The position numbers and the translations under genes are program-made. Shown in pieces: positions 15,131-29,939 of a stretch of DNA of 64,000 bases. Each line of letters opens with the position of its first letter. The stretch's first letter is position 1. The DNA comes from an uncultured Sphingomonadaceae bacterium (GTDB taxonomy: Bacteria; Pseudomonadota; Alphaproteobacteria; Sphingomonadales; Sphingomonadaceae): NCBI GenBank assembly GCA_947494305.1, contig CANLUL010000003.1, positions 62,001 through 126,000 on the forward strand, in the 5' to 3' direction. The notes below the pieces were generated by a model. It was not told where the DNA came from. It saw nothing but the letters and a program-made list of their open reading frames with translations, and did not search any database.

Positions 15131-15140
15131 GTAAAAATTA

Positions 15141-15169
15141 TTGACATCGTCACGCTGTTTAGGTACATA
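15141..15169 (+). promoter_or_regulatory. Sigma-70-like promoter at the head of the GTA leader
   Basis: TTGACA (15141-15146), a 17-base spacer, and TACATA (15164-15169) lie 10 bases after the patatin stop codon. The -35 box is consensus and the -10 box partial. It is the best promoter candidate in the gap before the GTA genes, and transcription would start near 15176. A strong-spaced promoter followed within 90 bases by a hairpin and T tract suggests either a small RNA or an attenuated leader. Confidence 0.55.
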
Positions 15170-15175
15170 TCAAGA

Positions 15176-15304: not shown

Positions 15305-15790
15305 ATGTCCAAAAATCCGGTACAGCTTAAACGCGATATCAAACGAAAGAAAAAATTCCTCAAACACCTGGCGATGAGTTCGCATGTCACCCAATCCGCG
15401 AGAGCAGCGAACATTCCAATCTCTACGCTCTACCTTTGGCGTGAGCGGGATGCCGAATTTCTGGAAGACTGGCTAATCGCGCTCTCTGCGGGATATGAAT
15501 TGCTGGAAATGGAATTGCTGCACCGCGCCCGAAACGGCGTCGAGAAACCTGTTTTTCGCAACGGAGAAAAGGTCGCAACAGTGAAGGAATATGACAATGG
15601 CCTGGCGTTTCGATTATTGATGGCGCACAAGGATTTGGTCGCCAAAACACGGGCCGCTCGAGCTGAAAATACCGATAGGACGACCCAGCTACGCCAAACC
15701 CTGGATCAGAAAATAAACCAGATGCGCGAACGGCTGCAAAACCGTGAAGATTTCAACGGAAATATCAAGCACGGCAGTAATTCTGCATGA
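15305..15790 (+). CDS. GTA small terminase subunit (gp1-like), helix-turn-helix protein
   Basis: This 161-residue protein is at the first position of the cluster and overlaps the large terminase by 4 bases. A helix-turn-helix-like stretch (about 22-50: T-Q-S-A-R-A-A-N-I-P-I-S-T-L-Y-L-W-R) is followed by helical, charged sequence ending in a probable coiled coil (about 110-150). Layout and position fit a small terminase, which recruits DNA to the packaging motor. RcGTA gp1 is shorter (about 106 residues) and packages host DNA with little specificity. Whether the recognisable DNA-binding region here gives sequence preference is unknown. Confidence 0.7.
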   Translation: MSKNPVQLKRDIKRKKKFLKHLAMSSHVTQSARAANIPISTLYLWRERDAEFLEDWLIALSAGYELLEMELLHRARNGVEKPVFRNGEKVATVKEYDNGLAFRLLMAHKDLVAKTRAARAENTDRTTQLRQTLDQKINQMRERLQNREDFNGNIKHGSNSA

Positions 15791-17100
15791 GCCGTGTCTC
15801 GACGGCGACTCTTCTTGCAAGACTAACCAACGAAGAACAGGCCGCGTTTCTCGCCGGACTGTCTTCGTTTGATCTGGAAAAATTAATGCACAGCTGGAAA
15901 GTTTGGGCACGGCCGGATCAGATTGCGCCAAAAGGACATTGGGCAACCTGGATGATTATGGCCGGGCGCGGGTTTGGCAAGACCAGGGCTGGCGCCGAAT
16001 GGGTGCGGTCCATTGCCGAGCAAAATGGCGATGCCCGCTTTGCCCTGGTCGGGGCCAATTTTGCCGAAGTAAGAACCGTGATGGTGGAAGGAGAAAGCGG
16101 TCTATTATCCATCGCACCATCCTTTAATCGTCCGTTATGGGAGCCTTCTCTAAAGCGGGTGCAATGGTCAAATGGCGCGGAGGCGCGGCTCTATTCTGCT
16201 GCGGAACCCGAAGGCTTGCGTGGGCCTCAACATAGTCACGCCTGGTGTGATGAGATTGCCAAATGGATGAATAATGCCGGTCAGGCCGTTGCGACCTGGG
16301 ACAATTTGAAAATGGGATTGCGGTTAGGGAAATGGCCGCAAACGGTGGCCACAACAACGCCGCGACCAGTGCCGCTGGTTCGGAAGCTGGTAAAGGATAG
16401 TGCCGCCGTGATTACCAAGGGCCGAACAATCGACAATGAGTTAAACCTGCCCGAGGCATTTTTGACGGCGATGGCCATTGATTATGCGGGTACGCGATTG
16501 GGCCGGCAGGAACTGGACGGAGAGTTGATCGAAGAGTTGGAGGGCGCTTTGTGGACGCGTTCCATGATCGAAGCTTGTCTGATTGATGAGGTACCCAGCT
16601 TCGTTCGGATTGTGGTGGCGGTTGATCCCCCTGCATCCGCCAATGGTGATGCGTGCGGGATTATCGTTGCGGCGCTGGGCCACGACCGAAAAGCCTATGT
16701 TCTTGCCGATTGCAGTACCGAAAAGCCAAGTCCGGAAAAATGGGCAAGGGCCGTTGCGGATGCTGCGGCACTATGGGATGCCGACCGGGTGATTGCGGAA
16801 GCCAATCAAGGCGGTGCGATGGTGAAGTCAGTCTTGCAGGCTGCGGATATCTCACTGCCGGTCAAGTTGGTCCATGCATCGCGGGGCAAGGTGGCGCGAG
16901 CGGAACCGGTTGCAGCGCTATATGAAAATGATCGCGTTCACCATATCTGCGCCTTCCCTCGACTGGAGGATGAGCTTTGCGGTTTGATGATCGGCGGAGC
17001 CTATGAAGGACCAGGCCGGTCCCCGGACCGCGCCGATGCGTTGGTTTGGGCGTTGACGGAATTGATGTTGGGAAAGAAGAACGAACCGCGGGTTCGATGA
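15787..17100 (+). CDS. GTA large terminase (packaging ATPase/nuclease, gp2-like)
   Basis: This 437-residue motor protein pumps DNA into the capsid and cuts it. The Walker A-like motif A-G-R-G-F-G-K-T-R is at 59-67, the Walker B acidic pair D-E at 155-156, and a motor coupling region with T-T-T-P-R-P is near 190. The C-terminal RNase H-like nuclease begins with V-A-V-D-P-P (D280) and ends with R-A-D-A-L-V-W-A-L near 415. All key residues are present, so it is not visibly decayed. Its start overlaps the stop of the small terminase (ATGA), indicating translational coupling; the portal follows after 39 bases. Confidence 0.93.
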   Translation: MSRVSTATLLARLTNEEQAAFLAGLSSFDLEKLMHSWKVWARPDQIAPKGHWATWMIMAGRGFGKTRAGAEWVRSIAEQNGDARFALVGANFAEVRTVMVEGESGLLSIAPSFNRPLWEPSLKRVQWSNGAEARLYSAAEPEGLRGPQHSHAWCDEIAKWMNNAGQAVATWDNLKMGLRLGKWPQTVATTTPRPVPLVRKLVKDSAAVITKGRTIDNELNLPEAFLTAMAIDYAGTRLGRQELDGELIEELEGALWTRSMIEACLIDEVPSFVRIVVAVDPPASANGDACGIIVAALGHDRKAYVLADCSTEKPSPEKWARAVADAAALWDADRVIAEANQGGAMVKSVLQAADISLPVKLVHASRGKVARAEPVAALYENDRVHHICAFPRLEDELCGLMIGGAYEGPGRSPDRADALVWALTELMLGKKNEPRVR

Positions 17101-17139
17101 ATTCTCCGGTCTTCGCCGGGGCACGGATAGGGAAAAAAT

Positions 17140-18279
17140 ATGACACTTTGGGAAAATCTGTCTCTCGCCTTCAAGGGTGGGGGTGATCATTCACGACCGC
17201 CTTTGGGGCGTTCATATATCGGCACTTATGGAGGCGCATCACTATCGAGTGAGGCGCCTTTTTCTTATGTCAGTGCAGTGCATGAGGCTTATGTTGAAAA
17301 TGCAATAGCACAGCGCGCGGTTCGGATTGTCGCGGAGGGCGTTGGCGGCGCGCCGTTGGCTGATCTCTCTGATGATGTCTCTGCATTGGTCAATCAAACG
17401 AGTGCCGGTCAGTCTTTGCTCGAAACTGTTGCGGCGCATCTTTTATTGCATGGCAATGCTTATGTGCAGATAATTTGCGGCGGCGATGACAAGCCGTGTG
17501 AGCTGTTTGCATTGCGCCCCGATCGGATAACGATCGAACCAGATTCGAAGGGTTGGCCAGTGGCGTATCGATACCGTGCCGGCGAACATCAAACACGGTT
17601 TGCGGCGCAAGATCAGATGGGCCGTAACGCCGTCATTCATATCAAGGCCTTTCATCCCACTGATGACCACTATGGGCTGGGATGTCTGGGTGCGGCGGCA
17701 AAAGCAGTGGCGGTGCACAATGCTGCGGCCAAGTGGAACAAGGCGCTTCTCGACAATGCCGCACGCCCTTCCGGAGCTCTCGTCTATGATCCCGGCGCCG
17801 ATGGTTCCGCTTTAACCGGTGAACAGTTTGATCGTCTGAAAGCGGAGATGGAGGCGAGTTTTGCCGGGTCTGGCAATGCCGGGCGGCCGATGCTGCTTGA
17901 AGGCGGTCTGAAATGGCAGTCGATGAGCATGACGCCCGCCGATATGGATTTCGTTGCACTCAAAGAGGCCGCTGCACGGGAAATTGCACTGGCCTTTGGT
18001 GTGCCGCCAATGCTTCTTGGACTGCCGGGGGACAATAGTTATGCCAATTACCGCGAAGCCAATCGTGCGCTTTGGCGGCTGACCATATTGCCGTTGGCGG
18101 GTAAAATACTCCGCGGATTATCCGACGCGCTGATCAGCTGGTGGCCAGAGGAAAGCCTGTCGATCGACCGTGACCAGATCCCGGCGCTGTCGGAGGACAG
18201 GGAGCGGTTATGGAAGCAAGTTTGCGACGCGGACTTCATGTCTCCCGAAGAGAAGCGGGCGATGTTGGGATTGGATTAG
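17140..18279 (+). CDS. GTA/HK97-type portal protein (gp3-like)
   Basis: This 379-residue protein of the HK97 portal family forms the dodecameric ring at the capsid vertex through which DNA passes. Recognised segments are the N-terminal V-S-A-V-H-E-A-Y-V-E-N-A-I-A-Q-R-A-V region, L-L-L-H-G-N-A-Y-V, R-P-D-R-I near 125, the R-P-S-G-A-L-V segment near 210, and F-G-V-P-P-M-L-L-G-L-P-G-D-N-S-Y-A-N-Y near 290. Length is usual for the family. A 183-bp palindromic element follows directly after the stop codon. Confidence 0.93.
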   Translation: MTLWENLSLAFKGGGDHSRPPLGRSYIGTYGGASLSSEAPFSYVSAVHEAYVENAIAQRAVRIVAEGVGGAPLADLSDDVSALVNQTSAGQSLLETVAAHLLLHGNAYVQIICGGDDKPCELFALRPDRITIEPDSKGWPVAYRYRAGEHQTRFAAQDQMGRNAVIHIKAFHPTDDHYGLGCLGAAAKAVAVHNAAAKWNKALLDNAARPSGALVYDPGADGSALTGEQFDRLKAEMEASFAGSGNAGRPMLLEGGLKWQSMSMTPADMDFVALKEAAAREIALAFGVPPMLLGLPGDNSYANYREANRALWRLTILPLAGKILRGLSDALISWWPEESLSIDRDQIPALSEDRERLWKQVCDADFMSPEEKRAMLGLD

Positions 18280-18287
18280 TTTTTTAT

Positions 18288-18470
18288 GACCTCAAGCGCC
18301 GGGCGGGCGCATCCGCGCCCTAGGCTATCCTCGCTTTGCTGCGGACGCGCGGTCGCGCTTGCCGTTGCTTTGCAACGGTCCTCTCGCGATCGATAACTTG
18401 GTTCGAAGCGTATGAGCACCGAGCATAGCGAGGCAAGGCCGCACGGACATCGCGCCCGGCGCCTGAGGTC
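18288..18470. repeat. 183-bp imperfect inverted-repeat element inside the GTA cluster (repeat family A)
   Basis: The left end reads gacctcaagcgccgggcg and the right end is its near-complement cgcccggcgcctgaggtc. Similarity between the arms continues inward for about 55 bases with small gaps, including the pair cctcgctttgct / agcatagcgagg. The middle is unrelated loop sequence with no open frame. The terminal core is shared with the palindrome at 2309-2358. It looks like a non-autonomous interspersed palindrome (REP/MITE-like) sitting between the portal and DUF6127 genes. Confidence 0.7.
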
Positions 18471-18490
18471 AAAACGGAGTTTTAAAAGAA

Positions 18491-18799
18491 ATGCAAAATG
18501 AAGATATGCTCGCCCGCCTGATGGCGCAGGCGGAAAGTGACGGTGCGGATTTGATTACCTTGCGCGCGATTGTTGAGGAGGCCACCGATAATGGCGCGGT
18601 GCGGGTTATTGATCGTCTTGGTTTGGGCGACGCGACAGCCCACGGTGATTTGGACGAACTGCGCGAATTGCTGCAAGCTTGGCGAACGGCCAAGTCGAGT
18701 GCCTGGAAAGAAGTGGTGACTTGGACCGTACGCGCGGTGCTGACACTGCTGCTGATCGGTATCGCCGTCCGTCTTGGCCTAAGTGATATGATACGGTGA
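18491..18799 (+). CDS. DUF6127-type small membrane protein of the GTA cluster
   Basis: This 102-residue protein has a soluble, acidic helical N terminus (M-L-A-R-L-M-A-Q-A-E-S-D-G-A-D-L-I-T-L-R) and a single C-terminal transmembrane segment (about 78-96). It resembles proteins I know as DUF6127 from sphingomonad GTA-like clusters. It lies between portal and protease and overlaps the protease start by 4 bases. A function such as membrane tethering of the portal or assembly site is inference only. The ATG lies just downstream of a repeat element; a convincing ribosome site (cggagttttaaaag) is weak. Confidence 0.65.
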   Translation: MQNEDMLARLMAQAESDGADLITLRAIVEEATDNGAVRVIDRLGLGDATAHGDLDELRELLQAWRTAKSSAWKEVVTWTVRAVLTLLLIGIAVRLGLSDMIR

Positions 18800-19194
18800 G
18801 CGCGATGCGCTTCGCCGGCTATGCCGCGATTTTCGATCGAATAGACAAGGGCGGTGATATTATCCGCCCCGGGGCTTTTGGGTCGCTGAAGGAAGGCCAG
18901 AAACTCCCGCTCCTTTGGCAACATGATCCCGGTCAGCGTATCGGCAGCGTGACATACGCGCAGGAAGATAGAAGGGGTTTGCGGGTTATTGGTAACCTCT
19001 CTCGCACCAGGAAAACTGGTCGTGCGGCAGCTGCCATGCTCGCAAATGGAGCGGTTAACGGATTGAGCTTCGGTTATCGCGTGAAACGATGCGACGGCAG
19101 CAAGCCCCGGATTTTGTTGGATCTCGATATCGCTGAAATCTCATTGGTGAGTTTCCCGATGCAAAGCGCGGCAAAGATACACATGATTGCTTAG
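18796..19194 (+). CDS. GTA prohead protease (HK97 family, gp4-like)
   Basis: This 132-residue serine protease matures the capsid by removing the scaffold-like N-terminal region of the major capsid protein. It opens with F-A-G-Y-A-A-I-F-D and has the catalytic histidine in L-L-W-Q-H-D-P (H43) and serine in G-L-S-F-G-Y (S91). The herpesvirus-assemblin-like fold core is complete, but the protein is short because C-terminal extensions seen in some phages are absent. The start is either the GTG at 18796, coupled to the upstream stop, or the ATG at 18805. Confidence 0.88.
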   Translation: MSAMRFAGYAAIFDRIDKGGDIIRPGAFGSLKEGQKLPLLWQHDPGQRIGSVTYAQEDRRGLRVIGNLSRTRKTGRAAAAMLANGAVNGLSFGYRVKRCDGSKPRILLDLDIAEISLVSFPMQSAAKIHMIA

Positions 19195-19220
19195 AATTAC
19201 CGGAGAACATGAAATTGCAG

Positions 19221-19244
19221 CCGCCCCGAACCGGGCGGTTTTTT
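19221..19244 (+). terminator. Intrinsic terminator between GTA protease and capsid genes
   Basis: CCGCCC (19221-19226) pairs perfectly with GGGCGG (19233-19238) around CGAACC, followed immediately by TTTTTT (19239-19244). This is a textbook rho-independent terminator, placed inside an otherwise continuous operon, 38 bases before the capsid start. It must be read through, act as an RNA end or processing site, or be overridden by antitermination. Confidence 0.75.
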
Positions 19245-19281
19245 ATTGCCTGAACTACATTACGCCCACGAAAGGAATATT

Positions 19282-20466
19282 ATGGAACTCTCCCCCAAAA
19301 ACGAAATATCGGAAAAACTCGAAACCAAGGCCGACCCGCTGGAGGCATCCTTTGATGCTGTGGTTATGGCCGAAGATGTGGCCAGCCACAGTAACGCAAT
19401 CGACACATTACGAACCGATGTCGACGGTCTGAAATCGCAGATGATTGATATTTCCAAAGCCTCTGCCCGTCCCGCACTGGAAGGCATTAAAGGCATGACT
19501 GCCTCCCCCGCTGCGCAAGATTTCGTAACCAAATATCTGCGCCGGGGCGATCATACCGGTATTGAGTTGAAAAGTTTCTCTGGTGCGTCTGGCCCTGAAG
19601 GCGGTTTTGCCGTCCCGCAAGAAATCGATGCATTGATCGGCTCCACGTTGAAGGACATTTCGCCGATCCGATCCATCGCAACCGTCGTGCAAACCGGCAG
19701 TGCGGGATATCGCAAGCTTGTGACAGATGGCGGTACGCCCTCCGGTTGGGTCAGCGAAACCGCCAGCCGTCCGGAAACGGATACGCCGAATTTCAACGAG
19801 ATCGCGCCGCCTACTGGAGAGCTTTATGCCAATCCTGCGGCTTCACAGGCGATGCTCGATGATGCCGCCTTCGATGTCGAAACCTGGCTCGCCGATGAAA
19901 TTGCGCGCGAATTTGCTCAGGCCGAAGGCAGTGCTTTCGTCAATGGTTCCGGAACCAATCAACCGCGCGGTTTTCTGAATGCGGCAATGACCGATGAGGC
20001 GGATGATGTGCGCGCCTTTGGTTCGTTACAATATGTGCCGTCTGGTTCTTCGGGCAGCTTTTCCAGCGAAGATGCATTGGTCGATCTGGTTCACACGCTA
20101 AGACCAGCCTACCGGCAAGGCGCCACATTTGTCATGAATAGCTCGACGCTGGCCCAAATCCGCAAATTTAAAACCGCTGATGGTGCGTTCTTGTGGCAGC
20201 CTTCGCTGGCCAATGGTCAACCCGACACGCTGCTCGGTTATCCGGTGGTAGAGGCGGAAGATATGCCAGATATTGCGGCGGACAGCCTCTCTATTGCCTT
20301 TGGTAATTTCCGTGCGGGTTATCTCATAGCCGAACGCAGTGCCACCAACATTTTGCGCGATCCGTTCACCAACAAACCGTTTGTGCATTTCTATGCAACC
20401 AAGCGTGTTGGCGGTCAGGTGATGAATTCCGAAGCGATTAAACTGATGCAGTTCAGCGCTTCCTGA
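19282..20466 (+). CDS. GTA major capsid protein (HK97 fold, gp5-like)
   Basis: From the ATG at 19282 (ribosome site GAAAGGAA) this is a 394-residue capsid protein. A TTG 36 bases upstream is in frame but lies close to the terminator hairpin and lacks a ribosome site. The N-terminal ~100 residues are charged and helical, like the HK97 delta domain that the adjacent protease removes. The mature part starts around the G-P-E-G-G-F-A-V-P segment and includes F-V-N-G-S-G-T-N-Q-P-R-G-F-L and L-L-G-Y-P-V-V, typical of the HK97 family. Two palindromic structures separate it from the next gene. Confidence 0.93.
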   Translation: MELSPKNEISEKLETKADPLEASFDAVVMAEDVASHSNAIDTLRTDVDGLKSQMIDISKASARPALEGIKGMTASPAAQDFVTKYLRRGDHTGIELKSFSGASGPEGGFAVPQEIDALIGSTLKDISPIRSIATVVQTGSAGYRKLVTDGGTPSGWVSETASRPETDTPNFNEIAPPTGELYANPAASQAMLDDAAFDVETWLADEIAREFAQAEGSAFVNGSGTNQPRGFLNAAMTDEADDVRAFGSLQYVPSGSSGSFSSEDALVDLVHTLRPAYRQGATFVMNSSTLAQIRKFKTADGAFLWQPSLANGQPDTLLGYPVVEAEDMPDIAADSLSIAFGNFRAGYLIAERSATNILRDPFTNKPFVHFYATKRVGGQVMNSEAIKLMQFSAS

Positions 20467-20473
20467 CTTGCTA

Positions 20474-20548
20474 TCCCGTCATGCTGAACTTGTTTCAGCA
20501 TCTCCATTGGTAATCTCCATACGAGATCCTGAAACGCCTTCAGGATGG
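20474..20548. repeat. Two-hairpin interspersed palindromic element (REP/BIME-like) after the capsid gene
   Basis: Hairpin one is ATGCTGAA (20481-20488) with TTCAGCAT (20494-20501). Hairpin two is ATCCTGAA (20526-20533) with TTCAGGAT (20539-20546). The 'cgtcatgctgaacttgtttcagcat' type of sequence is a common intergenic palindrome in alphaproteobacteria. It starts only eight bases after the capsid stop, within the cluster. Confidence 0.65.
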
Positions 20549-20580
20549 CGAAATCAATTCGCTGCGTTTCAACGTGGCGA

Positions 20581-20620
20581 GCGCCCGCGCCGTATTGCTC
20601 CCCTTGGTCGGTGCGGGCGC
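20581..20620 (+). promoter_or_regulatory. 12-bp GC-rich stem-loop before the head-tail connector gene
   Basis: GCGCCCGCGCCG (20581-20592) pairs with CGGTGCGGGCGC (20609-20620), with one wobble, around a 16-base loop. No T run follows, so it is more likely an RNA stability or processing structure than a terminator. The connector gene's GAAAGGACGA site begins about 17 bases later. Confidence 0.5.
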
Positions 20621-20653
20621 ACCATTTCCCTCTCTTGAAAGGACGACGCAATC

Positions 20654-21199
20654 ATGAGTTTTCCTGTTGAAGACCTGCCTGATATTCCATCGGAAATGAT
20701 TGCAGATGTCAAAAAATTTGTCCGAATCGATCATGATTTGGATGATGCTGCGGTGGATGAATTTATCCGCAGTGCTGCTTCGCTTTGCGAAGATTTTGTC
20801 GGTCAAATGCTAGTCATGCGATCGGTGACCGACATGCTGCCAGTTCGATCCGAGTGGCAAAAACTGAACCGCATTCCTGTGCAGTCCATTGGTGCTGTGG
20901 AGTTTATCTCTTCTGATGGAGCGGCGGTAGCTTTGCCTGCCGAAGCTTATGCTCTGGACATCGACAGCGATGGCTTTGGCTGGATTCGCCTAGCAGACAA
21001 CCGCAATGGGTCTCGCCTCCGCGTGACGTACAACGCCGGTATCGGGGTAGATTGGAAAGATCTCCCGCAAACGCTGCGTCAGGGTATCGTACGACTGGCT
21101 GGCTATCTTTATACAAATCGCGATGGTGTGGATGCTGGCGGTCCGCCCAGCGCGGTGACGGCGCTCTGGCGGCCCCATCGCCGGCTGAGGCTGGCCTGA
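20654..21199 (+). CDS. GTA head-tail connector protein (gp6-like)
   Basis: This 181-residue protein belongs to the phage gp6/phiE125 gp8-type connector family that docks beneath the portal. Landmarks include the N-terminal D-D-A-A-V-D-E-F-I-R-S-A-A-S-L-C-E-D-F helix, P-V-Q-S-I-G-A-V-E-F, and the V-T-Y-N-A-G segment followed by a helix (L-R-Q-G-I-V-R-L-A-G-Y-L-Y). Its stop codon overlaps the start of the next gene (TGATG). Length is near that of the RcGTA homologue. Confidence 0.85.
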   Translation: MSFPVEDLPDIPSEMIADVKKFVRIDHDLDDAAVDEFIRSAASLCEDFVGQMLVMRSVTDMLPVRSEWQKLNRIPVQSIGAVEFISSDGAAVALPAEAYALDIDSDGFGWIRLADNRNGSRLRVTYNAGIGVDWKDLPQTLRQGIVRLAGYLYTNRDGVDAGGPPSAVTALWRPHRRLRLA

Positions 21200-21525
21200 T
21201 GAGCGCTGAATTCGCAGGCGTACTGCGTGAACGCATTCGGATCGAAAGACCCTCTGCGGCGGGCGATAGCTTGGCCTCTGGTTCTACTGAAACCGAACTC
21301 GTGGGTGAATTTTGGGCGGCAATTGAAGCGCAAGGCGCCGGGTCAGAAGCCACTGCCGAGAGTCGATCAGCCATGCAGCGTTGGCGTTTCATCCTCCGTC
21401 AAACCGACAAGATCCTTCCCGGTGACCGGCTGATCTGGTCGGAACGAAATATGCTGATCCGCACAGTTTCTGAGGACAGGCGACTATTGCCCAGAACAAT
21501 TTTGGATGCCGAGGAGATTCGATGA
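21199..21525 (+). CDS. GTA head-tail adaptor protein (gp7-like)
   Basis: The ATG at 21199 overlaps the previous stop (TGATG) and gives a 108-residue protein. The frame stays open further upstream, but only inside the connector gene. It has the head-closure family pattern: L-R-E-R-I-x-I-E-R near the start, E-F-W-A-A-I-E-A in the middle, W-R-F-I-L-R, and the C-terminal G-D-R-L-I-W-S-E-R-N-M-L-I-R-T-V. It would join the connector ring to the tail. The stop overlaps the next small gene by 4 bases. Confidence 0.85.
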   Translation: MSAEFAGVLRERIRIERPSAAGDSLASGSTETELVGEFWAAIEAQGAGSEATAESRSAMQRWRFILRQTDKILPGDRLIWSERNMLIRTVSEDRRLLPRTILDAEEIR

Positions 21526-21743
21526 TGGACAGGTTATTGCAAAAGGGAAAACGGCTGGCGGAACAGAAAAAGGCCAAGGCCCGATGGGAAGTCAAAGCGG
21601 CTCTGGATGAATCGCTGCCAGACCATGTTGTGATAGAAGAGCAGGGTGATGGCCTTTTAGTCAAAGGTCCCAATCTCTCCGAACAAATTAGCGATAACAG
21701 CAGCTTGCGAGACGTTGCCTTTTTGATGCGGGGCGTTCGATGA
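21522..21743 (+). CDS. Small conserved-position GTA-cluster protein of unknown function
   Basis: This 73-residue, highly charged protein overlaps both neighbours by 4 bases, so it is clearly part of the translated operon. The N-terminal half is a basic helix (K-x-x-R-L-A-E-Q-K-K-A-K-A-R-W), and the C-terminal half looks like a small beta element (V-V-I-E-E-Q-G-D-G-L-L-V-K-G-P). I recall similar short proteins at this position in sphingomonad phage-like clusters. It has no counterpart in the RcGTA gene set that I can name. Confidence 0.6.
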   Translation: MMDRLLQKGKRLAEQKKAKARWEVKAALDESLPDHVVIEEQGDGLLVKGPNLSEQISDNSSLRDVAFLMRGVR

Positions 21744-22138
21744 GCAGCGCGCTTGAGGCCGTGCAAACTTCCATGGTTGCATCCTTGCAATCACACCAAC
21801 CGCTAGTGGACATGGTCACCGGTATATTTGATGGATCGCCGGCACGCGCCAAATTCCCTTATATCGTTTTGGCAACGGGAGCATCGCTCGATTGGAGCCA
21901 TAAGACAGGTGAAGGCCGCGCGCTTAGTCTGGCGCTAAGGGTGCATGATGACGGTGCCAGTGCGGCGCGCCTCCACCGGACCATGGCACTGGTCGAGGAT
22001 GCGCTGAAAGATGGTTTGAGCGATCCGCCTGATTGGCAAATCGTCACATTCGATTTCAGACGCACAAGAATCTTGCGCAGCGCAATCAGCCCCTGGAACG
22101 GACTGCTCGAATATCGCGCGCGCTGTCTAAAAACCTAA
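21740..22138 (+). CDS. GTA tail terminator/completion protein, DUF3168 (gp8-like)
   Basis: This 132-residue DUF3168 protein begins S-A-L-E-A-V-Q-T-S-M-V and contains the family run F-P-Y-I-V-L-A-T-G, W-S-H-K-T-G-E-G-R-A-L-S-L-A-L-R-V-H-D-D, and a C-terminal beta strand region ending Y-R-A-R-C. DUF3168 proteins cap the tail tube at the head-proximal end. The gene overlaps the previous one by 4 bases, with 20 bases to the tail tube gene. Confidence 0.85.
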   Translation: MSSALEAVQTSMVASLQSHQPLVDMVTGIFDGSPARAKFPYIVLATGASLDWSHKTGEGRALSLALRVHDDGASAARLHRTMALVEDALKDGLSDPPDWQIVTFDFRRTRILRSAISPWNGLLEYRARCLKT

Positions 22139-22158
22139 ATCTTTGAAAGGAACAACTT

Positions 22159-22566
22159 ATGGCAGCAGAAAAAGGCAGCGCCTTTCTTCTGAAAATTGGC
22201 GACGGAGAATCGCCGGCAGGATACACAACCATAGCTGGATTGCGCACCACGCAGATGTCGATTAACGGCGAACCGGTGGTTATCACAAACAAAGATAGTG
22301 GCGGCTGGCGGCAATTGCTGTCGGGTGCTGGTGTGCGGTCGGTTTCGGTTTCCGGGGCCGGTGTTTTCACTGGTTCTGATGCCGAAAATCGGATGAAGAA
22401 CCATGCGCTAGGCGGAACGATTGATGCGTTCGAACTCAGCTTCGAAAGCGGTGAAAAAATGCAAGGCGATTTCCTGATCTCGCGGCTGGATTATAGCGGC
22501 GATTTTAACGGTGAACGAAGCTATACAATGAGCCTGGAAAGCTCGGGCGCTGTCATCAATGCCTGA
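22159..22566 (+). CDS. GTA major tail (tube) protein (gp9-like)
   Basis: This 135-residue tail tube protein of the TP901-1/RcGTA type has a strong GAAAGGAAC ribosome site. Landmarks are K-G-S-A-F-L-L-K-I-G-D-G at the start, the G-L-R-T-T-Q-M-S-I-N segment, W-R-Q-L-L-S-G-A-G-V-R-S-V-S-V-S-G-A-G-V-F, and a final S-Y-T-M-S-L-E-S-S-G. It polymerises into the non-contractile tube. Its end overlaps the next gene by 8 bases. Confidence 0.88.
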   Translation: MAAEKGSAFLLKIGDGESPAGYTTIAGLRTTQMSINGEPVVITNKDSGGWRQLLSGAGVRSVSVSGAGVFTGSDAENRMKNHALGGTIDAFELSFESGEKMQGDFLISRLDYSGDFNGERSYTMSLESSGAVINA

Positions 22567-22897
22567 CCGGCCGGCTAACCCTATCCGCGGTGAAGCATCG
22601 CTGACACTGGCATCTGGAACCTATGTTCTGCGCCCAAGTTTTGAAGCTTTGGTTGCCGCGGAGGAAGAACTGGGTTCGCTTTTTGCGTTGGTGGAGCGGG
22701 CCGCCCATGGAAAACTGCTTCTGTCAGAAATCGTCACATTGTTCTGGCATTGTGTCGGCAGTAAACCGGAAGAACTGGATCGTGACCAATATGGCAGCGA
22801 GTTAGTATCTCTTGGATTGGCGCAGCTAACGCCGCCACTCAAGATGTTGCTCAAACAAATATTGGCGGGCAGCGCTCCCGATGACCAAGCCGTTTAG
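22559..22897 (+). CDS. GTA tail assembly protein (gp10, GTA TAM family)
   Basis: This 112-residue protein begins with a short linker, then G-E-A-S-L-T-L-A-S-G-T-Y-V-L-R-P-S-F-E-A-L-V-A-A-E-E-E-L-G-S-L, the signature of the GTA gp10 family, and continues with helical sequence (I-V-T-L-F-W-H-C-V). It probably acts as a tail assembly chaperone together with the next gene, analogous to the gpG/gpGT pair of lambda-like phages. It overlaps both neighbours. Confidence 0.85.
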   Translation: MPDRPANPIRGEASLTLASGTYVLRPSFEALVAAEEELGSLFALVERAAHGKLLLSEIVTLFWHCVGSKPEELDRDQYGSELVSLGLAQLTPPLKMLLKQILAGSAPDDQAV

Positions 22898-23087
22898 CGA
22901 AGGTGCCGAGAAACTATCGGCAATAGCGGTATGTTTACTCGGTTGGTCACCAGATCAATTCTGGTGTGTGACGCCGCAGGAACTGACGACGGCATTTAGC
23001 GCCTTAGATCATGAAAGCGGGGAAACCGCTGCACCGCTTGACAATACGCATCTCGAAAAACTGAAAGACAAATTCCCAGATGGATGA
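22881..23087 (+). CDS. GTA tail assembly chaperone (Rcc01693/gp10.1-like)
   Basis: This 68-residue protein overlaps the end of gp10 by 17 bases in another frame and the tape measure start by 8 bases. It includes a W-S-P-D-Q-F-W motif followed by T-P-Q-E-L-T-T-A-F, characteristic of the Rcc01693 chaperone family. In lambda-like phages the second chaperone part is made by frameshifting from the first; here it is a separate but overlapping gene, as in RcGTA. Confidence 0.82.
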   Translation: MTKPFSEGAEKLSAIAVCLLGWSPDQFWCVTPQELTTAFSALDHESGETAAPLDNTHLEKLKDKFPDG

Positions 23088-23658: not shown

Positions 23659-23660
23659 TC

Positions 23661-26003
23661 ATGGGATACTGGCTCGCGAAGGAACGAACTTCGCAGCAAA
23701 CCAGTTTTATGCAGCGATTTGATCCACGCTTTTGGACGATCAATTTCCCACGCCCTATGATGGCATCGATTGTGACAACCGCATCAGATGCCCTCAAAGT
23801 CGATGCTGTTTTCTACAATTCAGATGATCTTGCCGGATTGATTTGGGATAGCGAAGACACGCTCGATCATCCGTTACTCGCTTACGAAACACTGAAAGAT
23901 TACGCTCGTCTCAGCTGGCGATTTCATTGGAAATCTTCGGGTATCATGCCTCTGGATGCGGTGAACGGACCAACGCTAACTATCGAAGGGCGGGATGCGT
24001 CGGGTAATCCCAAAGCCTGGTATGTACGGCTTTGGAACTATGCTTCTGGGAGTCCAACAGATGCGCAGATATCAATAGAGTTTTCCAAACTGGATGGCGG
24101 TTTTCTGTTGCCGGGCGAGGCGGATCCGGTTCACCCGGATGATATAGACAGGCTGTTCATTTCGATCATCCCGCCCGAATATGATGCACTGGGCACGCGT
24201 TATGACACACCCAAAGTCGGGTGGGCTGAGATGAGTGAAATCCAAATTGATGGCGGCGGTGCGGTGCTTGAAATTGGCGATGTCATGGTTCCCGAAAACG
24301 GATTGTCCATGGCAACCGCCTATGATGACAGTTTCAATCAAACGCCGGAGCGGTTGCTGCGCTCGATCCGCGCGCTGGGCTATCGCGGAAGCATTAATCA
24401 CTATCTGGGGATGAGCCATTATTTCCGGCTCGGCACATCGGGCGAAGGGCTGTATGTTAGCCTTTCTCAACCGCAGTCTGGTGAAGAATTCGCGGCGATC
24501 AATCAACCATGCGCGGTATGGCATCGGGATTTTTTAAGGCGCGCCGATGCGATGGGTTTCGATGTCATTCAGTCGCTTTCTTATGAACTGTTCAACGCAC
24601 ACTGCTGGAACGACTGGAAACAGCGAGCCGAAAATGGTGATCAAGCGCTAACTGGGTGGGTACCGCCATCCACATTGCTGTCGCCTGCCAACGCCAATGC
24701 TATGGGTTATCTTCGGGCGGTGGCCCGGGCCTTTACTGCTATTGCCCGAGATGCCGGAGTGGCGATTAAGTTTCAGGTGGGTGAACCCTGGTGGTGGATC
24801 ATGCCGGATAAGCGGATTTGTCTGTACGATGCAGCTGCCAGTTCTGTCTTTGGATCACAAAGCGTGAGCATTGCCAGCATCGATGGCCCGAAAACCGACG
24901 CCCAAAAAGCCATGTTGGATCAAGCTGGTGCCATGCTGGCACAGTCCACCTCCAACTTGCTCGCTGCTGTAAAAAGCGAAGCCGGGGCAATGCCAGTTGA
25001 AACGCTGTTGCTGGCTTATCTGCCAACGATAGTGGATGCAAAAGCACCGGAAGCAAAGCGCGCAAACCTGCCCATCGGTTGGTCTGCGCCTGCCTTTGAT
25101 GTCCTGCAACTGGAAGATTATGACTGGGTGATAGCAGGTGATCGCCATGCCACACGGCGTGGGATCAACCTGGCGACCCAGCGGCTTGGCTATCCTATTG
25201 ATCGGCAGCATTATTTTGCGGGTTTTACCTTGTTGCCGGAAGATGATTTTATCTGGTCCAATATGGTGGAGGCGATTGATGATGCGCAGGACAGGGCCAC
25301 GCCCGCGATCTATGTCTGGGCGCTACCCCAAGTAGCGCGCGATGGATTTACCTATTTTGATGAAGAGGAAGAAAATGTGGATGCATTTGATGATGTCGAG
25401 TTTCCCATTGCAATCGGTCAGGGTGCGATCGTAGCACCAACATTCTCAACGGGTGTCATTACGACCTTATCGGGGCATGAGAAAAGAAATAGCGACTGGT
25501 CCGATGCCAAGATGGAATATGACGCAGGACCCGGTGTTCGCAGCGAAGACGAGTTAAGAACCTTAATAGATTTTTTCCGTGCGAGGCGCGGAGCAGCGAA
25601 AGCTTTCCGTTTCCGCGATCCATTGGACCATAGCTCGAATGCCATGACCGCTTCGCCCACCGCGCTTGATCAACAAATTGGTGTTGGAAACGGCCAGAAT
25701 ACCGAATTCGATTTGATTAAAACTTATGGGCAGGATGAATTCCAAAGCCGCCGAATCACCCGGCCTGTAGCTAACTCGTTGACTGTTGCAATCGATGGAC
25801 AAGCCGTTTCAAACTGGAGTTTAGAGCCATTGGGCCGGATTTTATTCGATCAACCGCCAGCGAGTGGAACGGTCGTCACAGCGGGCTTTCTGTTTGATGT
25901 TGCGGTACGCTTCGCCTCAGATCAATTGGAAGTCAGTCATGTAACGTTTCTGGCAGGAGAAGTGCCAGAGATACGGCTCTTAGAAGTCAGGGAAGCAGCG
26001 TGA
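23661..26003 (+). CDS. GTA distal tail protein (gp12, DUF2460) with large N-terminal TIM-barrel-like region
   Basis: This is a 780-residue fusion. Residues about 575-780 are the DUF2460 domain known from RcGTA gp12 (F-P-x-x-I-x-x-G-A, E-x-R-N, F-F-R-A-R-R-G, F-R-F-R-D-P). RcGTA gp12 is only about 210 residues. Residues 1-210 look beta-rich, and about 215-560 resemble a glycosidase-type TIM barrel, with F-Q-V-G-E-P-W-W-W (E375) and V-L-Q-L-E-D-Y-D-W as possible strand ends. The extra part may sheath or decorate the tail, or bind a surface polysaccharide. The barrel assignment is from sequence appearance only. There is no frameshift or stop at the junction, and the stop overlaps gp13. Confidence 0.8.
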   Translation: MGYWLAKERTSQQTSFMQRFDPRFWTINFPRPMMASIVTTASDALKVDAVFYNSDDLAGLIWDSEDTLDHPLLAYETLKDYARLSWRFHWKSSGIMPLDAVNGPTLTIEGRDASGNPKAWYVRLWNYASGSPTDAQISIEFSKLDGGFLLPGEADPVHPDDIDRLFISIIPPEYDALGTRYDTPKVGWAEMSEIQIDGGGAVLEIGDVMVPENGLSMATAYDDSFNQTPERLLRSIRALGYRGSINHYLGMSHYFRLGTSGEGLYVSLSQPQSGEEFAAINQPCAVWHRDFLRRADAMGFDVIQSLSYELFNAHCWNDWKQRAENGDQALTGWVPPSTLLSPANANAMGYLRAVARAFTAIARDAGVAIKFQVGEPWWWIMPDKRICLYDAAASSVFGSQSVSIASIDGPKTDAQKAMLDQAGAMLAQSTSNLLAAVKSEAGAMPVETLLLAYLPTIVDAKAPEAKRANLPIGWSAPAFDVLQLEDYDWVIAGDRHATRRGINLATQRLGYPIDRQHYFAGFTLLPEDDFIWSNMVEAIDDAQDRATPAIYVWALPQVARDGFTYFDEEEENVDAFDDVEFPIAIGQGAIVAPTFSTGVITTLSGHEKRNSDWSDAKMEYDAGPGVRSEDELRTLIDFFRARRGAAKAFRFRDPLDHSSNAMTASPTALDQQIGVGNGQNTEFDLIKTYGQDEFQSRRITRPVANSLTVAIDGQAVSNWSLEPLGRILFDQPPASGTVVTAGFLFDVAVRFASDQLEVSHVTFLAGEVPEIRLLEVREAA

Positions 26004-26818
26004 GCCTAACATGGTTGGACCGCGACCTTACGACAACAGCTTATGGGTGGCGACTTGATCGTGCTGATGGTGTGTCTTTCGGTTTTACCTCCCACGATCG
26101 AGATATTGTGGTCGACAATTTCCGCTATCGAGCAACCCCGGGGATGATACCGTCAACAATTTCTCTGAACGACAGTTTGGACGTCGATAGCGTGGAAATC
26201 GAAGGTGTCTTAAACGCTTCGGCAATTACAGAGGAAGACCTAGTCGCCGGTCGATGGAACGGAGCGCAATTACAGATTGTGCTGCTCAATTGGGAATCTC
26301 CGAATGATGAAGCCAAGCATTTGATTTCCGGAGAATTTGGTGAAATCACGCGTTCCGGTAATTCTTTTCAAGTCGAAATACTGGGCCCTACATCATTTCT
26401 AGACGAGGCCATTGTCCCCTTAACATCACCAACATGTAGAGCGCGATTTGGCGACAAGCAATGCAAGTTAAGCCTGCATGAGTATCAGCAAGAAGTGACG
26501 CTGAGTGGGCGCGATGGATCTCGAATGGAAATTGAAGATTTGGCGGGGCTGGCTTCAAGCTATGCCTTTGGTGAGCTGCGCTGGCTGAGTGGTCATAATT
26601 GTGGCCTATCGTCGGCAGTTTTGAAAGGCGAAGGCAATGCAGTCTGGTTGGCCGATGCGCCGGCAGACGTGGCGGTAATTGGCGAAAGAGTGCTGTTGAC
26701 AGCGGGATGTGATAAAAATTTCACGACCTGTCAAAACCGATTTGCAAATAGCCTAAATTTTCGTGGCGAACCGCATTTGCCTGGCAATGACTTGCTAACC
26801 CGATATCCGGGAACTTGA
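26000..26818 (+). CDS. GTA baseplate hub protein, DUF2163 (gp13-like)
   Basis: This 272-residue DUF2163 protein starts at a GTG overlapping the previous stop (GTGA). Landmarks include Y-G-W-R-L-D-R-A-D-G-V-S-F-G-F-T-S-H-D-R-D near the start and a cysteine-rich region: T-S-P-T-C-R-A-R-F-G-D-K-Q-C, then G-H-N-C, then G-C-D-K-N-F-T-T-C-Q-N-R-F. In RcGTA, gp13 forms part of the hub and coordinates a metal cluster through conserved cysteines; the same cysteine spacing is visible here. It ends with N-F-R-G-E-P-H-L-P-G-N-D. Confidence 0.88.
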   Translation: MSLTWLDRDLTTTAYGWRLDRADGVSFGFTSHDRDIVVDNFRYRATPGMIPSTISLNDSLDVDSVEIEGVLNASAITEEDLVAGRWNGAQLQIVLLNWESPNDEAKHLISGEFGEITRSGNSFQVEILGPTSFLDEAIVPLTSPTCRARFGDKQCKLSLHEYQQEVTLSGRDGSRMEIEDLAGLASSYAFGELRWLSGHNCGLSSAVLKGEGNAVWLADAPADVAVIGERVLLTAGCDKNFTTCQNRFANSLNFRGEPHLPGNDLLTRYPGT

Positions 26819-26819
26819 A

Positions 26820-27233
26820 ATGAAAGATCGAGCAACTGCATTGGCAGATGAAGCGCTTTTATTGTGCGGCACCGATTTCCGGTTGCATGGCCGGGATGCG
26901 GAAACTGGATTAGATTGCGTTGGGCTTGCAGGTCTTTGTATATCTGCCGTCAATCTGCAATCCATGGTTCCGACCGGATACTCCCTGCGCGGTGGTAACG
27001 TAGAGGTCATTATCGGCCTTATGGAGCAAGCCGGGTTTGAAAAAGTCTGCCGCCAAAGCGCGCCTCTTGACGGTGATGTGCTGTTGGTTCGGGTCAGCCC
27101 GGTTCAACTCCATTTCATGATTCGCGCACAAGATGGATATGTGCATGCACATGCGGGTTTGCGGAAAGTTGTTCTTTCCCCTGGGTCATGCCCCTGGCCG
27201 ATTTTAGCAATATTCCGAATTATGGAGTCCTGA
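26820..27233 (+). CDS. GTA cell-wall peptidase, NlpC/P60-like (gp14-like)
   Basis: This 137-residue protein is of the NlpC/P60 papain-like fold. The nucleophile is C33 in G-L-D-C-V-G-L-A-G-L-C, and the catalytic histidine lies in Y-V-H-A-H-A-G-L (H109 or H111). It sits at the tail tip and would cut peptidoglycan during DNA injection. It starts one base after the hub gene's stop codon and is followed immediately by gp15. Confidence 0.88.
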   Translation: MKDRATALADEALLLCGTDFRLHGRDAETGLDCVGLAGLCISAVNLQSMVPTGYSLRGGNVEVIIGLMEQAGFEKVCRQSAPLDGDVLLVRVSPVQLHFMIRAQDGYVHAHAGLRKVVLSPGSCPWPILAIFRIMES

Positions 27234-29441
27234 ATGGCAACTCTAGTTTTAACGGCTGTAGGGACGGCTGTCGGTGGCCCCATTGGCGGCGCATTGGGCG
27301 CACTGGTGGGCCAACAGGTTGACCAGAACATCCTTTTCAAACCCCCGGCGCGCGAAGGCCCGAGAATCCAGGAACTGGCAGTTCAGACATCCAGCTACGG
27401 AACACAAATCCCGCGAATTTTTGGTAGCATGCGCATCGCTGGTTCTGTTATTTGGGCAACCGATCTTAAGGAAACCCAAAATACGGAGGGCGGGAAAGGG
27501 CGTCCTGACACAACAACATACAGCTATTCCGCCTGTTTCGCTGTAGCTTTATCCAGTCGACCTATTCGAGGAATTGGCCGCATTTGGGCAGATGGAAATC
27601 TGTTTCGCGGTGTTGCTGGAGATTTTAAAACCGCAACTGGATTTCGCTTTTTCGAGGGTCATGAAGATCAATCACGAGATGGTTTAATTGCGTCAGCCGA
27701 GGGCGTAGATGCTGCGCCTGCCTATCGCGGGATGGCTATCGCCGTTTTTGAAGAAATGGAATTGGCGGATTATGGAAATCGCATTCCATCACTGACCTTT
27801 GAAATTATCGCTGATGATGGCTCAATAGATCTGGTCGATATCGTAAATGATCTTTCTGATCATCGGATATCCCTTTACTCACAAGAACGGCTCGATGGTT
27901 ATGCGGCATCTGGAGAAAACCGTCGAGCAGCCATGGACCCTATTGTCGACAACTATCGTTTGTCATTTTCGGCCGAAAATGGCGTGATTTTTGGACATTC
28001 TAGAATGAAAAGCACTTCCTCTGTGAAGGCTATCAAGACAGCCAGTTACGTTACTGACATAAATGGATCTGCAGTGGCGAAACCCCAATTTGAAACTGTT
28101 TCTGAAACGAAAATACCGGGTCAACTGACTCTTCGATACTATGAACCGGAAAGAGATTATCAGTCTGGATCACAGAGTGGTTTTCGACCGGGGATTAGCC
28201 GGGTCATTGCCCAACAAGATTTTCCTGCGGCAATCAATGCTTCTTTGGCTAAGCGCATAAGCCAAGAACTTTTATGGAATATATATTTCGAGAGATCCTC
28301 CGCTTCGATCGAGGTTCCCCGCGATGCTCAATTGGGGAAGCCTGGTGATCTCGTGCAACTGGACGGCCAAAAAGCATGGGTCATTCGAAATCATGAATTT
28401 CGGGCTGGATCTGCATCTCTGTCCTTGACCAGCACTGGTACCCATTTGGAAATGGCAGATTTAGAAAGTGACGGCGGCAGATCGGTTTCCAACTTGGATG
28501 CCACTGCTGGCGTCACCAGACTGGCTTTGTTCGATTTGCCTTTTGCGCCACAAGCACCAAATCAGGCTGCAACATCAGCGCAATTATTTGCCATTGCAGC
28601 TGGAGGAAAAGGCTGGCGCAATGCTGATCTGTACCAAGCGCAAGCGGATGGATCAGTTGGCAAATTTGTGGGAAAGTTGTCTTCACCGGGCATATTGGGC
28701 TCCGTAGAACAAGTTTTTGAACCCGGAAGCGCTTTACTGCTGGATCAAAACACGACCGTGACGGTTAAGCTGCATCATTCTGATATGCGGCTCAACGACG
28801 CAGATGACGTCCAACTTTATGCTGGCAAGAACGTTGCGATACTAGGGCAAGAAATCATACAATTTGCTAGAGCTGAGGCTCTGGGTGATGGACGATATTT
28901 ATTGTCGCGTTTTTATAGAGGTTTGGCTGGAACAGAACGTTTTATTGAAAACCACAAATCCCAGGAAGTCTTTATGTTGGTTGAACTGGCTTCTGCGACT
29001 TCAATATCTCCAAGTCATTTTACTCTCTTCGAGCCGGTAAAATTTGCGGCTTTGGGTCGCGATGATGCAGTGCCAGTTCTTGCTGAAATCGATTCGCCTG
29101 GAAACGCGTTGAGACCAAGGGAGCCGGTCCATATAAAATCCAGCTTCACTGACGCAGGTGATTTGGAACTGGTCTGGACAAGGCGTTCAAGAGCAGGTTC
29201 TGAATGGGTGGATCATGTCGACATGCCACTAGCCGAAGAGTTTGAAGAATATTTAGTCGAATGGAAAAGCAGTTCAGGTGAATCGCTAGGCGAGGCATCG
29301 GTTGGGGCGCCTCAATTCAGTGTGATGAAGTCGCAGATTTTGGATTATCGTGAACAGGAAATATCTCAAATCCAATTCAATGTACGACAACGGGGGCAAT
29401 ATACGATGTCTGCCGCGGCTTCGTTGACGGTCTCAATATAG
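27234..29441 (+). CDS. GTA host-specificity/tail tip protein (gp15-like), short form
   Basis: This 735-residue protein has the gp15 N terminus: a glycine/alanine-rich hydrophobic stretch (T-A-V-G-G-P-I-G-G-A-L-G-A-L-V-G), P-R-I-F-G-S-M-R-I-A-G-S-V-I-W-A-T, and A-P-A-Y-R-G-M-A-I-A-V-F-E-E-M-E-L. It goes directly on to the phage-tail hub region, and I see no internal GTA TIM-barrel segment. RcGTA gp15 is about 1300 residues and contains such a barrel. It would form the central hub and megatron-like tip contacting the recipient cell. Base composition appears somewhat more AT-rich than the terminase end of the cluster, judged by eye. Confidence 0.87.
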   Translation: MATLVLTAVGTAVGGPIGGALGALVGQQVDQNILFKPPAREGPRIQELAVQTSSYGTQIPRIFGSMRIAGSVIWATDLKETQNTEGGKGRPDTTTYSYSACFAVALSSRPIRGIGRIWADGNLFRGVAGDFKTATGFRFFEGHEDQSRDGLIASAEGVDAAPAYRGMAIAVFEEMELADYGNRIPSLTFEIIADDGSIDLVDIVNDLSDHRISLYSQERLDGYAASGENRRAAMDPIVDNYRLSFSAENGVIFGHSRMKSTSSVKAIKTASYVTDINGSAVAKPQFETVSETKIPGQLTLRYYEPERDYQSGSQSGFRPGISRVIAQQDFPAAINASLAKRISQELLWNIYFERSSASIEVPRDAQLGKPGDLVQLDGQKAWVIRNHEFRAGSASLSLTSTGTHLEMADLESDGGRSVSNLDATAGVTRLALFDLPFAPQAPNQAATSAQLFAIAAGGKGWRNADLYQAQADGSVGKFVGKLSSPGILGSVEQVFEPGSALLLDQNTTVTVKLHHSDMRLNDADDVQLYAGKNVAILGQEIIQFARAEALGDGRYLLSRFYRGLAGTERFIENHKSQEVFMLVELASATSISPSHFTLFEPVKFAALGRDDAVPVLAEIDSPGNALRPREPVHIKSSFTDAGDLELVWTRRSRAGSEWVDHVDMPLAEEFEEYLVEWKSSSGESLGEASVGAPQFSVMKSQILDYREQEISQIQFNVRQRGQYTMSAAASLTVSI

Positions 29442-29492
29442 GCGAGTTGTCTCGAATTTCTTCAGATACTGGATTTAACAGGAATTTTCATC

Positions 29493-29939
29493 ATGCAATC
29501 ATTACAAACGCCGCGCTATAAATTACCATTGTTAGCGACAGGGCAAGCCCACAAGGAGCGATTTCATAATGAAGCGCTCACTTTGCTGGACTTCTTAGTA
29601 TGTCCGATTGTGCAAGCTAAGCATAGCGATCCAAATATACTCGTGCCATCTGAAGGGAAAGCATGGCTGGTGGATGCAAATCCAACAGGCGACTGGGTTT
29701 CTCGAACGAATCAAATCGCAATTTGGACCGCTGGAGGATGGCGTTTCGTGGAACCAAATATTGGCGCGGAAATATTTATAGCTGATGCCAATGAAACTGC
29801 CATTTTTCGGGGAAACAATTGGGTTTCTCATGGAGCGATTGTTGGACCCGAAGGGGGCTCCGTAATCGATATCGAAGCCAGAATCGCCATTGATTCGATG
29901 CTGGAAGCGCTAAGAATCAAAGCAGTAATCGAAGGTTAG
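29493..29939 (+). CDS. DUF2793 tail-fibre-like protein
   Basis: This 148-residue protein carries the DUF2793 pattern: L-P-L-L-A-T-G-Q-A-H-K-E-R-F-H-N-E-A-L-T-L-L-D near residue 12, then W-L-V-D-A-N-P-T-G-D-W, and W-R-F-V-E-P-N-I-G-A. DUF2793 proteins are tail or head fibres; in R. capsulatus the related Rcc00171 is encoded away from the main cluster and is much longer. Here only the attachment-like domain is present, ending in a short helical tail. It is probably the last gene of the GTA transcript. Confidence 0.82.
   Translation: MQSLQTPRYKLPLLATGQAHKERFHNEALTLLDFLVCPIVQAKHSDPNILVPSEGKAWLVDANPTGDWVSRTNQIAIWTAGGWRFVEPNIGAEIFIADANETAIFRGNNWVSHGAIVGPEGGSVIDIEARIAIDSMLEALRIKAVIEG

Follow-up and report, generated by a model that had tools for sequence, protein, structure and literature searches.

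The DNA analysed here, a stretch of 64,000 nucleotides (the window) from the genome of an uncultured Sphingomonadaceae bacterium, carries between positions 15305 and 29939 a cluster of phage-like structural genes that is likely to encode a gene transfer agent (GTA) resembling that of Rhodobacter capsulatus (RcGTA), host-encoded and vertically inherited, in a sphingomonad form with a repressor-gated regulon and GafZ-like read-through. Judged from sequence, the encoded virus-like particle probably serves the bacterium to hand fragments of its genome to neighbours, and identity as a prophage is unlikely. An RcGTA-like GTA had been proposed in the first-pass annotation of this DNA, and the proposal is supported by conservation of gene order, vertical descent, purifying selection in relatives and the presence of a lysis locus and a regulator locus outside the cluster. 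The host genome comprises 3.35 Mb in 11 contigs, with an estimated completeness of 100%, and the window belongs to a contig of 424 kb (C3).

The cluster consists of 19 open reading frames (ORFs), all open and in one shared direction, which follow the RcGTA order and correspond to gp1 to gp15, three small extras (gp3.5, gp7.5 and gp10.1) and a DUF2793 gene (Table 1). The first-pass annotation had recognised the co-directional order as far as gp15 and the DUF2793 gene, while counting eighteen genes instead of 19, and its description of the ends as mostly overlapping was generous, since nine of the 18 gene junctions overlap and the other nine do not. Fifteen of the ORFs lie above Pfam cut-offs, gp1 and gp14 fall below them, and gp7.5 and gp11 are without a match; in PHROGs, gp1 was identified as the small terminase and gp11 as a relative of tape-measure proteins. 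The named ORFs within the cluster are all structural. Two features escaped that annotation, namely the departure of gp12 and gp15 from the domain composition of RcGTA and the conserved leader ahead of gp1.

Conservation of the cluster extends across the family, with presence in 77 of the 96 genera sampled. The TIM barrel of gp12 was found in 125 of 199 family genomes and the GTA gp10 domain in 128, with both present in 120 (by list comparison). From the 125 barrel-carrying genomes 40 family loci were fetched, and 16 further congeneric loci were added (loci are numbered L, genomes G and contigs C). The genes matched point the same way and keep their order in 39 of the 40 family loci; the exception, L065 (G140), has an inverted segment. 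All 16 congeneric loci keep the order, one of them (L079) without matches to gp13-gp15. Six genes (gp3, gp4, gp12, gp13, gp15 and DUF2793) were found in every family locus and a further seven (gp2, gp5, gp6, gp9, gp10, gp11 and gp14) in 39, followed by gp3.5 and gp10.1 in 37 and by gp1 and gp8 in 32, some loci being cut. The earlier description of the cluster as complete holds for its gene content in the window; it does not extend to universality of the genes, as gp7 is present in eight and gp7.5 in two of the 40 loci. Decaying or cut clusters were also observed, L065 combining a split gp12 with inversion of the gp8-gp10.1 segment.

The ratio of non-synonymous to synonymous substitution rates (dN/dS), a measurement that the first-pass annotation had proposed, was obtained with a Nei-Gojobori script for the 25 pairs closest in gp5 dS, from 786 pairs with dS <1.2; these pairs are mutually dependent and partly between genera. 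Per-gene medians range from 0.07 to 0.34, with single values up to 0.75, and are like those of the flanking genes (0.11 for the upstream patatin gene, 0.18 for the OmpA-type gene and 0.06 for purQ). Protein distances of the GTA and of two flanking host genes are congruent among 10 genomes (Mantel r 0.79, 0 of 2000 permutations as good).

The product of gp12 is a fusion of non-contractile tail sheath (NCTSP), TIM-barrel and distal tail domains, in which both NCTSP domains exceed the Pfam cut-off and the N-terminal sheath domain covers the whole profile. Its matches in the PDB are two sheath subunits of phage N4 and the distal tail proteins of RcGTA and R4C, and the N4 chains match the sheath N-domain and TIM barrel with E-values of 6e-17 and 4.8e-43. 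In N4, gp64 and gp65 form a six-fold non-contractile sheath, of which gp65 is the receptor binder (PMC12633501, a preprint). The median length of gp12 among the 40 family loci is 775.5 amino acids (aa), with shorter proteins in L048, L065, L066 and L067, and gp15 measures 683-763 aa. The GTA_TIM domain was absent from all eight family gp15 proteins scanned. Among 385 genomes of the class, the gp12 barrel was found in five (four of this family and one other) and GTA_TIM in 36, with no co-occurrence. Exchange of TIM barrels without detectable kinship suggests that GTA tails have been rebuilt with phage parts.

Joining the two modules in this reversed order seems to be a trait of sphingomonad GTAs, because phage Loki and the loci L127 and L086 have the distal tail gene before a separate sheath gene. 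Among the records of a phage collection 431 match gp12, and one of them, a fragment of 5.4 kb, does so over 80% or more of the protein; a single match spans at least 95% of gp12 in 79 of the best 80 viral-contig loci. Two candidates were rejected: relocation of the gp15 barrel into gp12 is unsupported, the barrel profiles, which may yet share a fold, being without similarity in a profile-level comparison (HHalign probability 0.5%), and L086, through which congener G214 has a second, phage-like copy, fails as a GTA on gene order. No description of such a sheath in a GTA was found in the literature searched, and the tail exchange, a comparative result, would be new as far as that literature extends.

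The gp12 barrel retains invariant glutamates (E165 and E275 of A1), such as are present in glycoside hydrolases, and there is a slightly less than even chance that, instead of forming a sheath, the extended part of gp12 binds receptors or cleaves glycans as an appendage. This would be in keeping with N4 gp65, which doubles as sheath and receptor binder (PMC12633501), whereas presence of the N-terminal sheath domain across its full profile argues for a sheath.

Expression of the cluster appears to be controlled from a conserved leader before gp1 (15121-15264). Its elements are an inverted repeat, a promoter whose spacer is conserved, a transcribed stretch that is likewise conserved, and a hairpin followed by a T run. 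Of the 35 family loci in which the promoter motif could be sought, 31 have it, 27 showing no more than one mismatch, and L039, L062, L065 and L072 lack it; the remaining five of the 40 loci, which are cut or without gp2, were left out. A repeat with at most two mismatches lies exactly 7-8 bp before the -35 element in 45 of 47 leaders (those of the window, family and congeners, leaving out L077, where the match is in coding sequence), against 0.7% for a random position pair. The window and 16 congeneric leaders (L076 and L077 left out) each fold into a single long hairpin, reaching from GGGC as far as the T run, despite differing stem sequences (z-scores of -1.9 to -5.6, mononucleotide shuffles). 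RNAalifold, hampered by stem sequences that cannot be aligned, recovered from these 17 leaders a short conserved helix only, with no two-sided changes, and the long hairpin rests on single-sequence folds. Rfam gave no match in the window. A promoter scan of the window, which returned 6 promoter-like sites compared with 11.6 in shuffles, did not list the gp1 promoter because its rule demands T at the last -10 position, and a terminator scan found no excess (17 compared with 17.7 in shuffles) and listed the hairpin at 15237. The case for the leader is comparative, and the leader would be new as far as the literature was searched.

Homologues of GafA and of an endolysin, for which the first-pass annotation had recommended a search, were both found elsewhere in the genome, as a single DUF6456 gene at C1:481402 (E 4.8e-37) and a single GH108 endolysin gene at C1:469472, 12 kb apart. 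The endolysin gene is followed by a GTA_holin_3TM gene (E 3.6e-30), and the DUF6456 gene is paired with a divergent gene for a 187-aa XRE protein. The close DUF6456 relatives include Parasphingorhabdus flavimaris, and in other orders DUF6456 forms the C-terminal part of longer GafA-like ORFs. The XRE gene is divergent from DUF6456 in 68 of 70 Sphingomonadales loci, and all 43 XRE proteins scanned (of 65 listed) have N-terminal HTH_31 and HTH_3, with S24, of which RogA has a degenerate C-terminal form, not among the families found in them at E<=1.

These loci are linked to the cluster by a shared repeat, the exact 11-mer core of which, ACCAAATAGGT, occurs four times in the genome, compared with an expectation of about 1.6 copies under equal base use. 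Three of the copies are GTA-linked, at the GTA promoter, the endolysin gene and the gap between the XRE and DUF6456 genes. The fourth (C2:180499; L143 1501-1511) is situated about 90 bp before a gene for an NAD-dependent epimerase/dehydratase, and surface sugars matter for GTA uptake in Rhodobacter. Of 67 XRE loci (the 68 divergent loci minus L202, where the match does not start at residue 1), 60 have an exact AACC-N5-GGTT no more than 60 bp from the XRE start, against a background of 1.1%. The nine GH108 loci with the best matches (E up to 1.0e-23) were taken as GTA-type; they have the repeat 27-42 bp upstream with 0-2 mismatches, six being exact, and the other three GH108 loci have 3-4 mismatches. 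The start positions of these GH108 genes were placed manually, in several cases only roughly, and each scan covered 120 bp, which leaves the two-mismatch result for L220 with little meaning. A holin-like ORF lies beside the endolysin gene in L219, L223, L224 and L225. In the metagenome-assembled genome of L182, the XRE/DUF6456 pair is located about 1.7 kb upstream of the GTA promoter and gp1. As the repeat precedes the endolysin gene, the XRE regulator and gp1, one repressor probably gates the regulator, particle and lysis genes, a comparative result that would likewise be new within the literature searched.

Across the 67 loci, the best-scoring repeat is 5-30 bp away from the start codon of the XRE gene, which is the layout of an autoregulated XRE gene, and the repeat's two-fold symmetry is that of sites used by Cro/CI-type dimers; both argue for an XRE operator. 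It is rather doubtful that the repeat is instead an activator site bound by the DUF6456 protein or another factor, such as IHF or a GafY-like activator, even if the spacing of 7-8 bp before the -35 element would suit an activator too. This alternative draws on Caulobacter, in which GTA promoters have both GafY and IHF bound ahead of them and nine of the ten most induced loci have GafY upstream (PMC11150451, PMC9632790).

With an XRE operator, expression of the GTA would begin when the RogA-like XRE repressor leaves the AACC-N5-GGTT sites and three promoters open together, one for the repressor and its GafZ-like DUF6456 partner, one for the particle operon and one for the endolysin and holin. 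By analogy with Caulobacter, the GafZ-like protein would load at the conserved -35/-10 spacer of the particle operon, allowing polymerase to pass the leader hairpin. The terminase would then pack host DNA into small heads, the short tail would bear the sheath-TIM-Dit fusion (Dit being the distal tail protein), and lysis would free the particles. Tentatively, and at a little less than an even chance, sphingomonad GTAs may represent a separate particle and control type. Their tail would be clad or tipped by a phage sheath-TIM module that is fused to the distal tail protein and replaces the RcGTA baseplate barrel. Their control would be one-tier, the regulator, particle and lysis promoters all being held by one XRE repressor through one shared operator, with GafZ-dependent read-through of the leader terminator.

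Several results weigh against the favoured explanation, that of a GTA with a repressor-gated regulon. The repeat being short, at most two mismatches to it are expected in about 10% of random 45-bp stretches, and its degenerate pattern occurs at 10 sites in the genome compared with 6 for a reversed control. A simple rule for hairpin and T run was satisfied by 11 of 19 leaders within the genus and by just 8 of 29 outside it, so that family-wide status of the hairpin is unsupported, and no hairpin was found in the congeneric leader L076. The C-terminal half of the XRE protein has no Pfam family match, making its kinship with RogA one of layout only, and Caulobacter RogA binds GGAA-N4-TTCC at gafYZ and at one promoter that is unchanged on GTA induction (PMC9632790). 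GH108 was found in just 11 of 34 family genomes, indicating that many relatives have a different lysis gene or none. No clear GTA signature emerged from carbon content (2.805 for the cluster, 2.82 for other window genes and 2.84-2.91 for phage-like homologues). The window is part of none of the 25 dN/dS pairs, and selection on its own lineage is therefore extrapolated from that in relatives.

It is improbable that the cluster was retained by descent while particle production was lost in this strain. Damage does occur in relatives, with the gp12 barrel split into adjacent pieces in three of 125 family genomes (G042, G044 and G140), L128 (G043) lacking gp12 and most of gp13, gp5-gp11 unmatched in L038 (G004), gp13-gp15 unmatched in the congener L079, one stop in congener G204 and the barrel unmatched in eight of 32 congeners (five of the 24 with a completeness of 90% or more). 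In the window, by contrast, all 19 ORFs are open, the DUF6456 and endolysin matches are in open frames without stops, and relatives show purifying selection.

The signs of a prophage named by the first-pass annotation (an integrase, att sites and strain-specific presence) were each looked for, the integrase as the tyrosine-integrase domain Phage_integrase (PF00589; no search for serine recombinases was made), and none was found. The lack of an integrase, which the annotation had reported for the cluster, holds for Phage_integrase across the whole 424-kb contig, its six matches being elsewhere in the genome. Between 11000 and 34000 no direct repeats resemble att sites, and the best pair bracketing the cluster is 16 nt long at 81% identity (15021/29461). 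A prophage, or a remnant still making or once making phage, is highly improbable, for although every structural gene is phage-like and phage-like loci with related tail modules exist (L086 and L127), Phage_integrase is missing from the contig and att-like repeats from around the cluster, the length is only about 15 kb, gene order is kept across the family, and both dN/dS and protein distances follow the flanking genes.

Relatives of the gp12 barrel are also encoded by at least 560 'viral' stretches in IMG/VR. The best 80 of these loci (L230-L309) are on contigs of at most 25.3 kb, and 23 of the 80 hold gp2, gp3, gp5, gp9, gp12, gp13 and gp15; given the short contigs and these seven cluster genes, some are probably GTAs filed as viruses. 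The leader check in the viral contigs is weak, as gp2 is present in 30 of the 80 loci and at least 900 bp inside the contig in five, three of which have the leader.

Table 1. Positions in the window of the leader elements, cluster genes and a neighbouring gene, with the basis of each assignment.
Feature	Position	Strand	Basis and remarks
Operator-like inverted repeat TACCAAATAGGTA	15121..15133	+	7 bp before -35; overlaps stop codon of upstream gene; 2 mismatches to AACC-N5-GGTT
Promoter TTGACA-N17-TACATA, sigma-70-type, conserved spacer GTCACGCT at 15149-15156	15141..15169	+	comparative motif
Terminator-like hairpin (15196-15259) and T run	15196..15264	+	z -2.32; 5 of 200 dinucleotide shuffles fold as well
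gp1, small terminase	15305..15790	+	PHROG 4044, E 1.6e-23
gp2, large terminase	15787..17100	+	Terminase_6N and Terminase_6C
gp3, portal	17140..18279	+	PF04860, E 1.3e-75; single copy in genome (profile search)
gp3.5, DUF6127	18491..18799	+	E 9.3e-26
gp4, prohead protease S78	18796..19194	+	E 2.1e-23
gp5, major capsid protein	19282..20466	+	PF05065, E 7.2e-90
gp6, head-tail connector	20654..21199	+	PF05135, E 1.4e-6
gp7, head completion	21199..21525	+	PF05521, E 3.7e-8
gp7.5, small ORF, 73 aa	21522..21743	+	no Pfam or PHROGs family match; found in congeneric loci
gp8, tail completion	21740..22138	+	PF11367, E 7e-11
gp9, tail tube	22159..22566	+	PF06199, E 1.8e-39
gp10	22559..22897	+	PF11836 GTA-gp10, E 1.7e-17
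gp10.1, tail assembly chaperone	22881..23087	+	PF09550, E 3.3e-12
gp11, short tape measure, 192 aa	23080..23658	+	PHROG 30701 (unknown function), E 8.3e-59; tape-measure PHROGs, best E 3.5e-12
gp12 fusion, 780 aa	23661..26003	+	sheath N-domain aa 17-206, TIM barrel 211-563, DUF2460 distal tail domain 577-777; E 2.4e-94, 3.3e-160, 2.3e-72
gp13, hub	26000..26818	+	PF09931, E 1.3e-47; PF09356
gp14, NlpC/P60-like peptidase	26820..27233	+	E 0.014, below cut-off; position
gp15, baseplate protein without GTA_TIM, 735 aa	27234..29441	+	Rcc01698_C, Phage-tail_3; GTA_megatron 390 bits, cut-off 800
DUF2793 tail-fibre-type gene	29493..29939	+	E 2.1e-24
OmpA-family outer-membrane protein, conserved neighbour and candidate member of the system	30139..31245	+	beyond DUF2793, same direction, in 34 of 40 family loci

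Two of the gaps between cluster genes, one of 211 bp after gp3 and one of 187 bp after gp5, contain long inverted repeats (intergenic 18284-18474 and 20477-20620), which are perhaps mobile palindromes; no second copy of one arm of these was found in the window. Downstream of the cluster, the OmpA-family gene may be a partner of the system or merely a fixed neighbour, and an AHH-type nuclease gene is present at 31392-31946 (PF14412, E 6.6e-16).

In the literature searched, no report of GTA production in Sphingomonadales was found, and GTA clusters of these bacteria are undemonstrated there as working machines. The shared repeat singles out the XRE gene, removal of which would be expected to switch production on and allow transfer to be tested directly. 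Rebuilt GTA tails would bear on host range and on the distinction of GTAs from prophages, the latter being affected because the best 80 'viral' barrel loci sit on such short contigs.

The cluster resembles RcGTA in its order from gp1 to gp15, with a DUF2460 Dit, hub, peptidase and baseplate protein, as well as in the separate lysis pair with GTA_holin_3TM and the DUF6456 regulator. It differs in gp12, as the RcGTA distal tail protein has 210 aa in place of the present fusion, and in gp15, which lacks GTA_TIM and remains far below the GTA_megatron cut-off, a GTA_TIM megatron gp15 being a mark of the RcGTA type and not of GTAs in general. In addition, DUF6456 is here a separate short gene and DUF2793 lies inside the cluster.

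The Caulobacter crescentus system (CcGTA, with RogA, GafY and GafZ) is similar in having an XRE-type repressor, for which a candidate is present here, a GafZ counterpart in the DUF6456 protein, a conserved -35/-10 element and a terminator-like structure early in the operon. In Caulobacter, GafZ, a homologue of the C-terminal part of GafA, acts in antitermination, and its putative site lies between -35 and -10 (PMC11150451). The repeat sequence differs between the two systems and is found here at three GTA-linked promoters, whereas in Caulobacter the sites are at gafYZ and one unrelated promoter, and the hairpin precedes the first gene here and follows it in Caulobacter. The sheath N-domain and TIM barrel connect gp12 to N4 gp64/gp65 and, among Lokivirus proteins, to ORF17 of phage Loki, with the difference that in Loki, L127 and L086 a separate sheath match stands behind the distal tail gene and here one ORF has the opposite order.

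The same kind of cluster is known from other Sphingomonadales (Kogay et al.; Sphingomonas sp. AAP5). The domain exchange and control leader are not described in the portions of this literature covered by the search, which include a report of a complete GTA cluster in AAP5 that covers the gene cluster only (PMC8067484). Kogay et al. reported that g12 and g15 lengths differ in Sphingomonadales (PMC7360931) and that g7 was detectable in only 7 of 55 Sphingomonadales genomes (PMC9765227), with which the scarcity of gp7 among the 40 family loci agrees.

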